NCBI RefSeq assembly: GCF_023238625.1
Contig: NZ_CP096670.1
Location: forward strand, 1,043,501-1,107,500
Direction of reading: 5' to 3'
Source: Agarivorans sp. TSD2052
Lineage (GTDB): Bacteria > Pseudomonadota > Gammaproteobacteria > Enterobacterales > Celerinatantimonadaceae
Length of the DNA stretch: 64,000 bases
The notes under the pieces were generated by a model. It saw only the letters and a program-made list of their open reading frames with translations. It was not told where the DNA came from and made no database searches. Positions 45,369-50,920 of the stretch are shown piece by piece. The stretch's first letter is position 1. Each line of letters starts with the position of its first letter. The position numbers and the translations under genes are program-made.

Positions 45369-46361
45369 GTGAAAGTATTCCTCGTTTGTTTTTTTGTTCT
45401 GATTAGTAGTCAAGTATCGGCTAACGAATCGAGTAAACCTCGTTACTTGGTGGTCCCTAAAGCTGTCAGTAATCCCTTTTTTGATGATGTAGAGAAAGGC
45501 TGCTTGCAAGCCGCCGCTGAGCTAAATGTTGAGTGTATTTACATCGGGCCGGAAGAAGCCGATGCTCGCTATCAAGATCAAATTATTACTCAACAAATCG
45601 AAAAGGGCGTAAACGGTATTTCGGTGTCGGTGATTAACTCTCGAGTGCTTACACACCGCAGTATGCTGTTAGCTCAGCAGAACAATATTCCCATTGTTAC
45701 CTTTGATTCTGACTTCTCAGATAAAGCTTTGGAGCAGAATCCAAGGTTGCGTCACAGCTACATTGGTACCGACAACTTTCAGTTTGGCTTTCAGTTGGGC
45801 CGGCTAACTCAAGCGCTTAAGCCGCAAGGTGGAGCCTTTTGTATACTAACTGGCAATAAAAGCGCAGCCAACTTAATAGAGAGGATTAACGGTGTATATG
45901 CCGGTTTAGGTTTTACTGGTAGCGACAACAGCGACAACAGTGACTTATGGGAGGAACATACACGTTGTCCGATTTATGCCGATGACGATGCTCAGCGCAC
46001 GTTAAACAACTTAGACAGGATGATACAGCTCCATAAATACGAGCCTAGGTTATTAGATGTTATTATTACCGTAGGGGCTTGGCCACAAACATTAGACGCT
46101 CAATATACCGAGCTGGTTAGCCCGCATATCGATGTGCTTTCTTCACAAAATTTGCTGCTAATTTTCGGCGATACTTTAGCGGTACAAAAAAGACTGCTGG
46201 CGCAGGGCTTAGCTCACGGCAATGTGGGACAGTCTCCTTATGATATGGGGTATCAGTCGATTTACACCTTACATAATATTCACCAAGGTAAAGCGGTAGA
46301 GCCCATCATCCATACCAAATTAGAGCGCTGTGTTTATGGGCTGCAGCCAATGTGCCAATAG
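45369..46361 (+). CDS. Orphan periplasmic sugar-binding-type protein
   Basis: A 330-residue periplasmic binding protein of the LacI/RbsB-like (Peripla_BP_4) class, with a cleavable signal peptide (ends QVSA). The first lobe has YLVVPKAVSNPFFDDVEKGC, IEKGVNGISVSVIN and IPIVTFDSDFSD; the second domain starts at the conserved SYIGTDNFQFGFQLGR and contains GNVGQSPYDMGYQSIYTL. No permease or ATPase gene is nearby on either strand, so it may serve a distant transporter or act as a sensor co-receptor, as TorT and LuxP do. The AraC-CBM21 regulator and amylase genes follow on the same strand, so a sugar ligand is plausible but unproven. Confidence 0.82.
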   Translation: MKVFLVCFFVLISSQVSANESSKPRYLVVPKAVSNPFFDDVEKGCLQAAAELNVECIYIGPEEADARYQDQIITQQIEKGVNGISVSVINSRVLTHRSMLLAQQNNIPIVTFDSDFSDKALEQNPRLRHSYIGTDNFQFGFQLGRLTQALKPQGGAFCILTGNKSAANLIERINGVYAGLGFTGSDNSDNSDLWEEHTRCPIYADDDAQRTLNNLDRMIQLHKYEPRLLDVIITVGAWPQTLDAQYTELVSPHIDVLSSQNLLLIFGDTLAVQKRLLAQGLAHGNVGQSPYDMGYQSIYTLHNIHQGKAVEPIIHTKLERCVYGLQPMCQ

Positions 46362-46665: not shown

Positions 46666-48090
46666 TTGAATCAATCTGCGGATATTTCGATACTTGCTAA
46701 AAAGCTCGGTCACTCGCACCTTCGCGTGGCAGGAGAGTACTGGCATCTCAGCGACTTATTGCGCTTACAAGCTATGTTGCTAGAGCACGCTGAGTCACTA
46801 AGAGAGGGCTTGATTTGGTGGAGCAAGAGTATCTCTTTACTCGATCGTCAGGTCTATATTGAGGTGAGTGAATCGGCTGATAGTTTTTTACTCTCATTAT
46901 ATTCTCGCGAGCAACAGGCTCTGCCGGCTTGGAGCAAACTCCGGCTAGAGCAATTACAACAGCAGCTCAATCATCTTAGCTTCGCCACGCTCTCCAGCAA
47001 AAACAATCAACTTGCTTTGCAATTCCCGAGTAAAGGACTAACGCAAAGTGTCGAGCCTAATGCTGCTATTCATAGCTTTGCTCAAAAGGTGTATCACTTA
47101 CTACAACACCAGACGATAAGCTTGCCTGATATACACTCGCAGCTTAAAAATATTATCAAACAACACTTAGTCGAGCCTCTCAGTATTAATGATGTGGCGA
47201 AAAAAATGGGCCTATCAACCCGCACGTTACAGCGGCGTTTACGCGACAAACAGCTTAATTTTTCTCAGTTAATCGAAGACGAAAAGAAAACCTTGGCGCT
47301 TAATCTGTTAGCCGATACACCGATGCCTATTGCCAGTATTGCTTTGCGTTTAGGGTACGACGACCCGTCTAATTTTCATCGCTCATTTCGCCGTTGGTTT
47401 CGCTTTACACCAAGTTTTTTTCGCCAGCAATGCCTGCAAAATCGCGCTGAACGAAAAGATCAACCGGTGCGCCTGCATTATGCGCGAGGACCGGTGGGCG
47501 GAGAAGGGGAGTTACATACCCAAGAGGGTCAAGTACGGCTAGAAGTAGACAATATTGCATTTGAAAAAGTGGTAACGGTTGAGTGTAAAGACCAAGATGG
47601 TGTGTGGCGCCATTATCCTGCTTTTTTTGACGACTTCTTATGTGATGGGACCGAACTGTGGTCGACCGCTAACTTGCCTGTAGCGCAGCCTTTGCAGTTT
47701 AGGTTATGTTATGAAGTCGACGGTGAAAAGTATATTGATGACAACCAGCAGCGTGATTACAAAGTAAACGAACGTTTGTTATTTGGCTCACCCGCTTATA
47801 TTGTGCCGACCTTAAATATCATTAAAACCGGCTTTGCTTTTCAGTTGTTTGTTGAGCTTGCCTGCCAACTAGACGCTGTGGCTAAAGTGCTATGTTATGT
47901 CGGTGAAAATATAGAGCCGCTGGCCTTACAGAAAGTGAGTTCTAACCAACAATATACGGTTTGGACCTTGTCTAGTCCGTTCCCTGCCTTGGTGAAACAG
48001 TGCCAGTTTCGTTTGTTCGACCAGCAAAACCAAGAGTTAGCGACTCAGCATTACCCCCAAAGTTATCAGTTTATTTCACCGCTTCTATAG
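46666..48090 (+). CDS. AraC-family regulator with C-terminal CBM21-like carbohydrate-binding domain
   Basis: A 474-residue protein with an unusual layout. Residues 1-150 form an unknown N-terminal domain. Residues about 153-256 are an AraC double helix-turn-helix: LSINDVAKKMGLSTRTLQRR and IASIALRLGYDDPSNFHRSF, ending FTPSFFRQ. After it, where AraC proteins normally stop, come about 220 more residues. Residues 286-368 resemble a CBM21 starch/glycogen-binding module: VRLEVDNIAFEKVVTVECKD at the front and RLCYEVDGEKYIDDNQQRDY at the back (the CY-x2-DG-x2-YIDDN part resembles the family's Y-x3-G-x2-YWDNN). Residues 369-474 look like a second beta-sandwich. The start is a TTG, since an in-frame TGA lies just upstream. 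The amylase gene follows 175 bp later. Confidence 0.85.
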   Translation: MNQSADISILAKKLGHSHLRVAGEYWHLSDLLRLQAMLLEHAESLREGLIWWSKSISLLDRQVYIEVSESADSFLLSLYSREQQALPAWSKLRLEQLQQQLNHLSFATLSSKNNQLALQFPSKGLTQSVEPNAAIHSFAQKVYHLLQHQTISLPDIHSQLKNIIKQHLVEPLSINDVAKKMGLSTRTLQRRLRDKQLNFSQLIEDEKKTLALNLLADTPMPIASIALRLGYDDPSNFHRSFRRWFRFTPSFFRQQCLQNRAERKDQPVRLHYARGPVGGEGELHTQEGQVRLEVDNIAFEKVVTVECKDQDGVWRHYPAFFDDFLCDGTELWSTANLPVAQPLQFRLCYEVDGEKYIDDNQQRDYKVNERLLFGSPAYIVPTLNIIKTGFAFQLFVELACQLDAVAKVLCYVGENIEPLALQKVSSNQQYTVWTLSSPFPALVKQCQFRLFDQQNQELATQHYPQSYQFISPLL

Positions 48091-48193
48091 GCACTGTGTA
48101 ATCGGTGTAATGGTTAGCCTAACCGTTGGCGTCAATAACTGCTAACTTGCTCACGTAATCATTAAGCTGGCATCCAACTACCAATATTTTGGC

Positions 48194-48205
48194 GTGTCAT
48201 GACAC
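48194..48205. promoter_or_regulatory. Perfect 12-bp palindrome upstream of the amylase gene
   Basis: GTGTCATGACAC is self-complementary and lies 60 bp before the amylase start codon, in the 175-bp gap after the AraC-CBM21 gene. It is a candidate operator; AraC proteins usually bind direct repeats, so another regulator is possible. Confidence 0.4.
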
Positions 48206-48265
48206 TAAATTAACCTGGCTATTCCTTTATTGTTTGGCGAAACATAAAAGATAAAGGAATGCAGT

Positions 48266-50920
48266 ATGTTGTTATTCAATAGTCATATATTGAAACCCAT
48301 TAATATTTTGTCATTTTCTGTGGTTTTAGCTCTGTCTGGCTGTAACTCTGACGACGAAGTAAGTCAGCAGGCAGGTAGTCATGTGTCGTCACCTGAATGG
48401 CAGGATCAGATTATTTACTTTTTGATGATCGACCGATTCAACAATGGTGATCCCAGCTTGAGTGACCAAGGTTATGGTGAATATGATCCAAGCTCTGATA
48501 AGAAATTCAGTGGTGGAGACTTGCTGGGCGTGAGCGACAAACTCGATTATATTCAGCAGTTGGGCGCGACTTCTGTTTGGATTACACCTCCTGTGGCGAA
48601 CCAGTGGTGGGATAACCAGCAAAATTATGGCGGCTACCACGGGTATTGGGCGCGAGACTTTCAAAAGGTAGATGAGCATTTTGGTAATTTAGCCAGCTAT
48701 CAACACCTCGCGAGTGAAGTTCATAGCCGCAGTATGTATTTGATTCAGGACATTGTGACTAACCATGTTGGCAATTATTTTACCTATGATAAGCCTTGGG
48801 AATATGATGCTTCTATACCTTGTGAAGGCTTTCGCTTAATCGAAAAACCACTTGCCGATGGGCAGACACTCCCTTTTCCGCTAAACCAAAATACTTGCCA
48901 AGACGATGGTTCGGGTAGCTTCCATTGGACTCCAAGCATTACCGACCATAACGATCCTGTTCAGGAAAAAAACTGGCAGTTATCTGATTTAGATGATTTA
49001 AATACTAGCGACCCAGCCGTGCGAGCTTACTTGAAAGATAGCTATCGCAAATGGATTAGGGAAGTGGGGGTTGATGCCTTTAGGATCGACACGGTTAAGT
49101 TTGTAGACCACGATTTCTGGACTGATTTTTTGCATGCGGATGATGGCGTCATCTCGCAGGCGGAACAAACTGGGCGGCAGAACTTTTTAACCTTTGGCGA
49201 AGTATTTGAAAGCTCAAGTGCCTATAACACCGAAGGTGAACAGAAAATGCTGAGCTACTTGGGTGAAGGAGATGATAAGCAGCTTGGCTCCTTACTTAAC
49301 TTCCCTATGCAAACCACAATGACACGGGTATTTGCTTCTGGCCAACCTACCGATTACTTGCGCTTTCGGATAGAGAAGATGATGGAGTTATTTCCAAACC
49401 CTTACATCATGCCTAACTTTATCGACAATCATGACATGCCGCGGTTTTTGTCTCAAGCTAGCCAAGCTGACTTAAAACAAGCACTCATGACGATGTTAAG
49501 TATTCCCGGTATTCCGGTTATTTATCAAGGTACCGAGCAAGCTATGAGCGCTAGCCGCGACGCTATGTTTGAAGGCGGTTATAGAGAAGATGCCAGTTCA
49601 AAAGACTCCTTTGACAGTACTAGCGAGATGTACTTATTCATTCAAGATCTCGCCAAGTTACGTAGTGAAAATCCAGTGATGACCCGTGGTGACATTAAGG
49701 TGATTGCCAGTGATAAATCGGGCGCTGGAGTGTTTAGTTTTACCCGTCATTTAGCCGACGAAGATGTGTTGGTGGTGATGAACACAGCGAACGTCCCGAT
49801 GTTGCTTAATCGCCTAGATGTAGAGCAAGCGGAAGGCACCGTATTTGAGCAGAAAATTCAAGCCAATTGGCTACAAGCACCAGCAGGCTTAGTCGCCGAT
49901 GGCAACGGGGAAATAAGTTTAGAGCTACCAGCAAAATCTGCAGTAATTTACTTCAAAACCGCGACTAGTACTGCGGTAGACACCCCCGACTTAGGCATCA
50001 GCCTAGACGGTGATTGGAGCGACAGCACAGTGACTCAAGATACCTTGATTACTGGCCAAGCCGAGCCAAATGCAGAGCTACAGTTGGTGGTTAATGGTAA
50101 TTTAAGCACCGCCACGAATATCGAGGTAGACAGCAACGGTGATTGGTCTGCACTTTTGTCTACTCGCCACTTTGCCATCGGTGAGCAACAGCATCGTTTC
50201 GCGATTTACTCACCCAGTGAGCAAGCAGGTTTAGCCGATGTACATTTCACCTCTGACTTAGCATGGTCTAGTGTGCCTGATATCGCTATTGATGATAGTG
50301 CTGATGTGCAACAAGGGAGCGGAGGGCCAAACGGCACTTACTCGTTACCGGAAGATCCCAGCTTTGACAAAGTAAACAGCCAACTGGCAGTAAATCAGCT
50401 CGAAGTTTACTCGGTGGGCAGCAATGTTCGTTTAAAAATGGTGATGGATAAACTGACCGATACTTGGTTACCACCCAATGGCTTTGATCATGTTGGTTTC
50501 TCAATCTTTATTGATTTACCTGAAGACCAAGGCAGTACTCAAACGGTATTACCAAAAATAAACGCCACAATGCCGGATGGCACCTGGAACCGAAATGCGG
50601 TGGTATTTGGCTGGCAGAGCTCGATTTATAATGCTGAGGGTGCTGATGCTAGCAATTGGGGGGAAGCAGTCACGCCGGCACCCAAAGTTACCGTAGATAA
50701 AGAAAATCAAATTATATATTTGGATTTTGCCAGCGAAGCTTTGGGTAGACCAGAAAGCCTAAATGGTATTCGCTTCTATGTGAGCACGTGGGATTTAGAT
50801 GGACTGTCTGCGGTATATCGCCCGTTAGCGGCTGATGCCGGCCCATGGAACTTTTCGGGTGGCGACGCTGATGAAGCCAAAATTTGGGATGAATTACCTA
50901 TTCTCAGCTTAAGTGAATAA
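48266..50920 (+). CDS. Alpha-amylase family (GH13) lipoprotein with C-terminal glucodextranase-type domain
   Basis: An 884-residue surface-type alpha-glucan hydrolase. A lipoprotein signal (lipobox LSGC, cysteine 26) precedes a GH13 barrel at about 45-480. Catalytic regions are DIVTNHVG (Asp162, His167), GVDAFRIDTVKFVD (nucleophile Asp275), FLTFGEVFES (acid/base Glu312) and FIDNHDMPRF (His389, Asp390). A GH13 C-domain follows, then an Ig-like segment (about 572-672, LITGQAEPNAELQLVVNG) and a C-terminal domain at 676-884 resembling the C-terminal binding module of glucodextranase (NGTYSLPEDPSF, FDHVGFSIFIDLPE, VVFGWQSSIY). Anchored in the outer membrane, it would cut starch or glycogen outside the cytoplasm. 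Start ATG has AAAGGAA upstream. Confidence 0.93.
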   Translation: MLLFNSHILKPINILSFSVVLALSGCNSDDEVSQQAGSHVSSPEWQDQIIYFLMIDRFNNGDPSLSDQGYGEYDPSSDKKFSGGDLLGVSDKLDYIQQLGATSVWITPPVANQWWDNQQNYGGYHGYWARDFQKVDEHFGNLASYQHLASEVHSRSMYLIQDIVTNHVGNYFTYDKPWEYDASIPCEGFRLIEKPLADGQTLPFPLNQNTCQDDGSGSFHWTPSITDHNDPVQEKNWQLSDLDDLNTSDPAVRAYLKDSYRKWIREVGVDAFRIDTVKFVDHDFWTDFLHADDGVISQAEQTGRQNFLTFGEVFESSSAYNTEGEQKMLSYLGEGDDKQLGSLLNFPMQTTMTRVFASGQPTDYLRFRIEKMMELFPNPYIMPNFIDNHDMPRFLSQASQADLKQALMTMLSIPGIPVIYQGTEQAMSASRDAMFEGGYREDASSKDSFDSTSEMYLFIQDLAKLRSENPVMTRGDIKVIASDKSGAGVFSFTRHLADEDVLVVMNTANVPMLLNRLDVEQAEGTVFEQKIQANWLQAPAGLVADGNGEISLELPAKSAVIYFKTATSTAVDTPDLGISLDGDWSDSTVTQDTLITGQAEPNAELQLVVNGNLSTATNIEVDSNGDWSALLSTRHFAIGEQQHRFAIYSPSEQAGLADVHFTSDLAWSSVPDIAIDDSADVQQGSGGPNGTYSLPEDPSFDKVNSQLAVNQLEVYSVGSNVRLKMVMDKLTDTWLPPNGFDHVGFSIFIDLPEDQGSTQTVLPKINATMPDGTWNRNAVVFGWQSSIYNAEGADASNWGEAVTPAPKVTVDKENQIIYLDFASEALGRPESLNGIRFYVSTWDLDGLSAVYRPLAADAGPWNFSGGDADEAKIWDELPILSLSE

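Follow-up and report, generated by a model that had tools for sequence, protein, structure and literature searches.

An AraC/XylS-type regulator with a C-terminal CBM21 domain, a candidate alpha-glucan sensor for the adjoining amylase gene

Introduction

What would a transcription regulator do with a starch-binding module? The question is raised by a gene in a 64,000-nucleotide stretch from Agarivorans sp. TSD2052 (contig NZ_CP096670.1, positions 1,043,501 to 1,107,500), referred to here as the window. The gene encodes an AraC/XylS-type regulator of a kind that occurs in some marine bacteria. An earlier note, made from the letters of the window, proposed that the part of this protein beyond its DNA-binding domain contains a carbohydrate-binding module (CBM) of family 21 (CBM21), by which the regulator reads alpha-glucan and controls the amylase gene next to it. 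Most known bacterial carbohydrate regulators read small sugars, or polymers from outside the membrane. A DNA-binding protein bearing a starch- or glycogen-binding module would, if true, be a new way of sensing alpha-glucan.

We consider it reasonably probable that the protein serves one surface amylase as its dedicated regulator, and that CBM21 is its means of sensing alpha-1,4-glucan, either maltodextrin brought into the cell or glycogen. The domain homology, the conservation of the main sugar site (site II), the linkage to the amylase and a conserved candidate operator are backed by computation. The regulator gene, the candidate operator and the amylase gene lie on the forward strand, and coordinates given without a locus label are those of the window.

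Results

The regulator contains a CBM21 domain

The regulator gene (46666-48090) has a TTG start and encodes 474 amino acids, and relatives were found in 23 distinct loci including the window. As a rule, an AraC protein has nothing beyond its DNA-binding domain. Here that domain, placed by Pfam helix-turn-helix matches at residues 153-256 (47122-47433; HTH_18 at residues 178-255, E 1e-18), is followed by about 210 further residues; from the open reading frame (ORF), the earlier note had counted about 220. Both HTH_18 and HTH_AraC were matched in all 22 regulator family members compared. The NCBIfam QhpR model matches residues 100-253 of the window regulator at E 6.9e-28, far below the model's own cut-off.

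The CBM21 core, defined by profile comparison and conservation, occupies residues 286-368 (47521-47769). Taken alone, the window protein gives a Pfam CBM_21 match at residues 338-368 (E 8.7e-5) with 23.2 bits, below the cut-off of 28.9. A search of the window's whole genome with PF03370 found nothing at E<=0.001, and in a later search of a phylum sample the window's own protein scored 18.9 bits (E 0.005). When it was compared with PDB sequences using phmmer, the starch-binding domain of Rhizopus glucoamylase (2djm) was matched at E 0.0069 and protein phosphatase 1 (PP1) subunit 3B at E 0.17. Because the window protein was too weak by Pfam alone, family profiles were used instead. The PF03370 comparison, which falls short for the single protein, holds for the family: CBM_21 is matched at E<=0.01 in 19 of the 22 members, window included.

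A profile of the regulator CBM21 domain was built from the 22 sequences, again including the window. Against PDB sequences it matched 2djm at E 1.3e-7, PPP1R3B (2eef) at E 7.1e-5 and PPP1R3C (7qf7) at E 7.5e-5. Comparison by hhalign with the CBM21 domains of six proteins, from the same genus or order as the window, gave 99.3% probability over 101 columns; four of the six were scanned against PF03370 and scored 58-121 bits. It is concluded that the regulator domain is almost certainly homologous to CBM21, and the earlier assignment of residues 286-368 is upheld. The related genomes (loci L016, L017 and L019-L024) carry CBM21 proteins that, judged from their N-termini, are probably secreted, and the four scanned have E values from 1.3e-15 to 3e-35. 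In the window's own genome the regulator was the sole match in a search with its C-terminal half.

AlphaFold2 models residues 267-474 as all-beta, with a mean pLDDT (predicted local distance difference test) of 88.4 and a pTM (predicted template modelling score) of 0.84; the corresponding values for the full-length model are 77.6 and 0.41. With Foldseek, the full model has CdpR (5chh) as its best match and AraC chains for its middle part, and among the matches listed the beta domains pair mainly with chains of antibodies and T-cell receptors, and also with a Pyrococcus amylase (4aef). The models thus suggest an all-beta fold for the C-terminal half, and nothing more specific. Antibodies and T-cell receptors make up most of the best 50 Foldseek matches for the C-terminal model and the window protein's Pfam score is below cut-off, as would be expected if the C-terminal half were a generic Ig-like beta-sandwich whose resemblance to CBM21 is convergent or due to chance. 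Such an explanation is highly improbable given the profile match to the Rhizopus CBM21, the hhalign result with related-genome CBM21 domains and the matching site II residues.

The last part of the protein, residues 374-474 (47785-48087), is a second all-beta domain predicted by AlphaFold2. The earlier note had described residues 369-474 as looking like a second beta-sandwich. This agrees with the model, which has good confidence. Comparisons by hhalign were weak (33% to the first C-terminal domain, 11% to other CBM21 domains), the PDB sequence matches of the last-domain profile include no CBM, and no profile identifies residues 374-474. A CBM21-like DDNxGxxY motif closes the sequences of the three divergent relatives and suggests a second CBM21 here. 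Because the profile comparisons for it are weak, this assignment is tentative.

The N-terminal domain (residues 1-152, 46666-47121) is distantly Arabinose_bd-like (PF12625), as indicated by Pfam matches of family members and by Foldseek. Two members out of 11 show an Arabinose_bd match at E<=1, the better one at 2.3e-4, and with 22 members and E<=0.01 a single match is found; the window protein itself gave no Arabinose_bd match. Since this domain is present, the CBM may be an additional input and not a substitute for another one.

Mean pairwise identity among the 22 sequences is 0.67 in the CBM21 core, 0.54 in the DNA-binding domain, and 0.36 in both the N-terminal and the last domain. The most conserved region of the regulator is therefore the CBM21 core, ahead of the DNA-binding domain, which argues for the module having a function.

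The main sugar site is conserved

Contact residues were mapped by hand from printed alignments of the regulator family with CBM21 sequences. In PTG (PPP1R3C), the available excerpts of PMC9582199 give the primary site II as N177, F180, E181, K182, Y203 and D214, and site I as R187, W193, Y196, C235, W246, N248 and N253. For the Rhizopus CBM21, an excerpt of PMC3511584 names Y32 of site II as the major binding residue and W47, Y83 and Y94 as site I.

Site II is retained almost throughout the regulator family: N296 in 21/22, F299 in 22/22, E300 in 20/22, and K301, F321 and E330 in 22/22 each. The N-x-x-F-E-K motif and the aromatic residue are thus kept, with F321 at the position of Y203 and E330 at that of D214 in PTG. 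In site I, W314 (21/22) and Y317 (22/22) are kept. Residue 359, at the position of PTG N248 and Rhizopus N96, is D in 14 sequences and N in 8, and residue 364 (PTG N253) is D, N, G or P. By this mapping the main sugar site (II) is kept and the ancillary site (I) is altered. PP1 GM is reported to bind at site II only (excerpts of PMC9582199), and site I is therefore seemingly not required of the CBM21 family.

The alteration of site I would also favour a different explanation, in which the CBM21 fold survives for structural reasons or for protein contacts (dimerisation or RNA polymerase contact) and has lost sugar binding, the N-terminal domain being the sensor. The invariant residues D309, D311, G312, R315 and Y317 around W314 could form a contact surface, and the N-terminal domain is Arabinose_bd-like. 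Given that the primary site II is nearly invariant, and that the conservation of the N-terminal domain is among the lowest in the protein, we regard this explanation as rather unlikely.

The regulator gene adjoins a GH13 amylase in all 23 loci

The ORF at 48266-50920, 175 bp downstream of the regulator and on the same strand, encodes a GH13 amylase of 884 amino acids with an LSGC lipoprotein-type signal. Pfam identifies Alpha-amylase (PF00128, E 1.6e-53) and Glucodextran_C (E 2.9e-18), confirming the earlier reading of this neighbour, which is the probable target of the regulator. A lipobox-like motif was found in all 22 amylases examined. The enzyme is presumed to sit at the cell surface.

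The 23 loci comprise 18 from a pattern-seeded scan, the window, and L062, L063, L064 and L065. The downstream gene was scored as the next ORF of 100 amino acids or more on the same strand. In 23/23 loci a homologous GH13 amylase lies directly downstream of the regulator, so that the linkage of homologues to glucan genes, which the earlier note had suggested surveying, is complete in this set. In the 18 scan loci the next ORF is homologous to the amylase of the window, with 67-82% identity (40.6% for L042), and the amylases of L062-L065 are 46-83% identical. Outside Agarivorans the flanks differ: among the window ORFs at 36-58 kb only the regulator-amylase pair was matched, with one exception, a 34% match in L034.

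In a sample of 295 genomes from the order, the amylase was present in 10 of the 10 genomes with the regulator, compared with 7 of the 285 without it. The total of 17/295 (matches at E<=1e-60) may be low, as scoring took in no more than 4 candidates from each genome. The seven genomes with amylase and no regulator have only 42-55% identical enzymes, or pieces. Regulator and amylase distances are correlated, with r 0.90 over 22 loci and r 0.92 over 19 loci (the divergent three left out). In a permutation test on the 19 loci, 0 of 2000 permutations gave a correlation as high; shared species descent contributes to it.

A candidate operator is conserved in the gap

The gap between the two genes contains a candidate operator (48168-48205), made up of TGGCAT at 48168 and TGGCGTGTCATGACAC at 48190-48205, with starts 22 bp apart and a conserved downstream half. 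Of the 23 gaps, 20 have an exact copy of the pattern TGGCRNNNNRTGACAC (TGGCR-N4-RTGACAC), on the coding strand. In 18 of these 20, TGRCA is found 22 bp upstream (start to start); the upstream half differs in the other two, being TGTCA in L038 and TGGCG in L065. Next comes an AT-rich element, roughly TTAttGT, whose conservation is partial. The candidate operator is where the regulator would be expected to bind DNA.

In the window, the candidate operator is the sole match with up to 1 mismatch (chance mean 0.71). A genome-wide search covered 11 genomes, with G030 and G118 left out, and gave 25 matches to the pattern, 8 of which are the gaps of the 8 regulator-bearing genomes. The other 17 compare with 18 for a reversed control pattern; the window's own genome has 3 matches where the control has 5, and G248, G196 and G216 each have no match but the gap site. 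A wider regulon was considered and rejected: away from the gaps, the 11 genomes show no excess of the operator pattern over its reversed control, so no further target emerges. At the stringency of this pattern, the counts point to a dedicated one-gene regulator. That the regulator controls the amylase, as the earlier note supposed, is very likely from the adjacency in 23/23 loci and the AraC-like candidate site in 20/23 gaps.

Proposed mechanism

The mechanism we propose is as follows. In a soluble, cytoplasmic AraC/XylS-type regulator, site II of the C-terminal CBM21 would be the sensor of alpha-1,4-glucan, and the protein would control one gene, the adjoining surface lipoprotein amylase, by way of the tandem-like site in the gap. 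Basal amylase would release maltodextrins, which would enter through maltoporin; their binding to CBM21 would switch the regulator on, and amylase would rise. The inducer would thus be imported maltodextrin, a product of the controlled amylase, and this is the simplest account. In Caldicellulosiruptor bescii, tandem-repeat AraC-family sites upstream of promoters were taken as a sign of activation (excerpt of PMC8579813), and we infer activation rather than repression here. The binding of sugar and the identity and length of the ligand are likewise presumed.

Sensing of alpha-glucan by the CBM21 module is fairly likely. The earlier note's inference that the regulator reads alpha-glucan is supported in part, by the CBM21 homology and the conserved primary site, and was adjusted in one respect, as an N-terminal domain is still present. 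The usual hydropathy limit for a membrane segment is 1.6. The hydropathy scan of the regulator showed no clear membrane segment, so that the ligand is most likely cytoplasmic.

The families of LamB (maltoporin) and glycogen synthase are both present in 13/13 genomes examined, so both ligand sources are possible. Choosing between glycogen and maltodextrin from gene content was tried and is uninformative, since the 13 genomes include 3 without the regulator. Sensing of polymer in particular is unlikely, and it is similarly doubtful that a one-component factor reads intracellular glycogen or long maltodextrin directly and so couples the status of the polymer reserve to the surface amylase. Glycogen tethering is a bolder alternative: CBM21 would hold the regulator on glycogen particles, as in the PP1 targeting subunits, full glycogen sequestering it and used-up glycogen freeing it to turn the amylase on. 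The solved relatives do include PP1 glycogen-targeting subunits, and glycogen synthase is found in all 13 genomes; however, it is also found in genomes without the regulator, and there is degradation of site I, for which a helping role with long polymers has been hypothesised (excerpts of PMC9582199). We therefore consider tethering distinctly unlikely.

A number of points weigh against the proposed mechanism. The roles in sugar binding and amylase control are drawn from sequence comparison. The N-terminal domain could be the regulator's real sensor. The structural comparison with CBM21 that the earlier note had suggested is no help to the CBM21 reading, with no CBM21 chain among the best 50 of 1775 and 1684 Foldseek PDB matches (full and C-terminal models, respectively). 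Aromatic binding residues are partly lost in site I, another point raised there, site II being kept: residue 357 (PTG W246/Rhizopus Y94 position) is I in 18, V in 2, S in 1 and E in 1; residue 346 (C235/Y83) is R, K or T; and residue 306 (PTG R187) is E, L or M. The hydropathy maximum of 1.55, from residue 394 in a stretch modelled as beta strands, is near the limit. LamB and glycogen synthase occur also in three genus mates without the regulator and are non-discriminating. The exact operator is absent in three divergent loci, where the best sites have 4 (L042), 2 (L062) and 3 (L063) mismatches, and a promoter scan found no sigma-70-type promoter at the amylase.

Relation to known systems

The closest regulators are of the CdpR (PDB 5chh)/QhpR type, whose N-terminal domain is of the Arabinose_bd kind. 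They too have an N-terminal domain, an AraC double helix-turn-helix and a local target gene, but differ in that about 200 residues with CBM21 follow the DNA-binding domain here. The CBM21 domains of Rhizopus oryzae glucoamylase, PTG/PPP1R3C and PPP1R3B share sequence homology and the primary site II residues with the regulator. Their hosts are an enzyme or a phosphatase-targeting subunit, whereas here the host is a DNA-binding protein and site I is altered.

RsgI anti-sigma factors carry carbohydrate-binding modules. Those of Clostridium thermocellum also tie a carbohydrate-binding domain to transcription of glycan-degrading genes. RsgI sits in the membrane and its signalling works through proteolysis; in the present case the module is part of the DNA-binding protein, in which hydropathy showed no clear membrane segment. 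ECF52/53 proteins similarly link carbohydrate-binding domains to transcription control, the domains being predicted in that case (excerpt of PMC10766802).

No AraC-CBM21 regulator is described in the full-text literature searched, most subscription journals being outside its coverage, and within that scope the earlier statement that no described regulator of this layout is known stands. Among the 4 papers naming both CBM21 and AraC, each term once, none is about such a protein by its title and the start of its abstract. The two-gene unit with its single conserved candidate operator makes the proposal directly testable in an E. coli reporter, and the unit might find use as a biosensor for maltodextrin or starch.

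Distribution and neighbouring genes

The pattern-seeded scan covered one genome per species for 84,980 species and gave 49 stretches, from which 18 loci were confirmed: 1 from Agarivorans, 8 from Vibrio (Vibrio sp. CAU 1672 twice), 1 from a Vibrionaceae metagenome-assembled genome, 5 from Photobacterium and 3 from Psychromonas. There are at least this many, as divergent relatives such as G030 and G118 were missed. In the order sample the C-terminal half was matched in 12 of 295 genomes, 10 with the regulator and 2 with another CBM21 protein only. The CBM21 profile was matched in 1 of 369 genomes of a class sample, the window's own. In the phylum sample 0 of 398 genomes reach the Pfam cut-off for CBM_21; at E<=0.01 the window's own is again the sole match. 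A tblastn search of plasmids with the regulator C-terminal half gave no match.

The two pairs in Vibrio sp. CAU 1672 are a close one (L028:9137-13414) and a divergent one (L042:9131-14225), the latter 32% (regulator) and 41% (amylase) identical to the window. The regulator of Psychromonas aquimarina (L011:610-2130) has a tandem LQRR expansion, with 20 extra residues, in its DNA-binding domain, put down either to slippage or to an artefact of assembly.

Next to the regulator gene on its upstream side, at 45369-46361 of the window, lies a gene for a protein of the periplasmic sugar-binding type (Peripla_BP_4, E 1.7e-43); of the 18 scan loci, only the Agarivorans one has a match to it. Amylase homologues without the regulator occur at L055:3350-4723 and L058:1-1356, beside ORFs for putative tryptophan-halogenase-type proteins.

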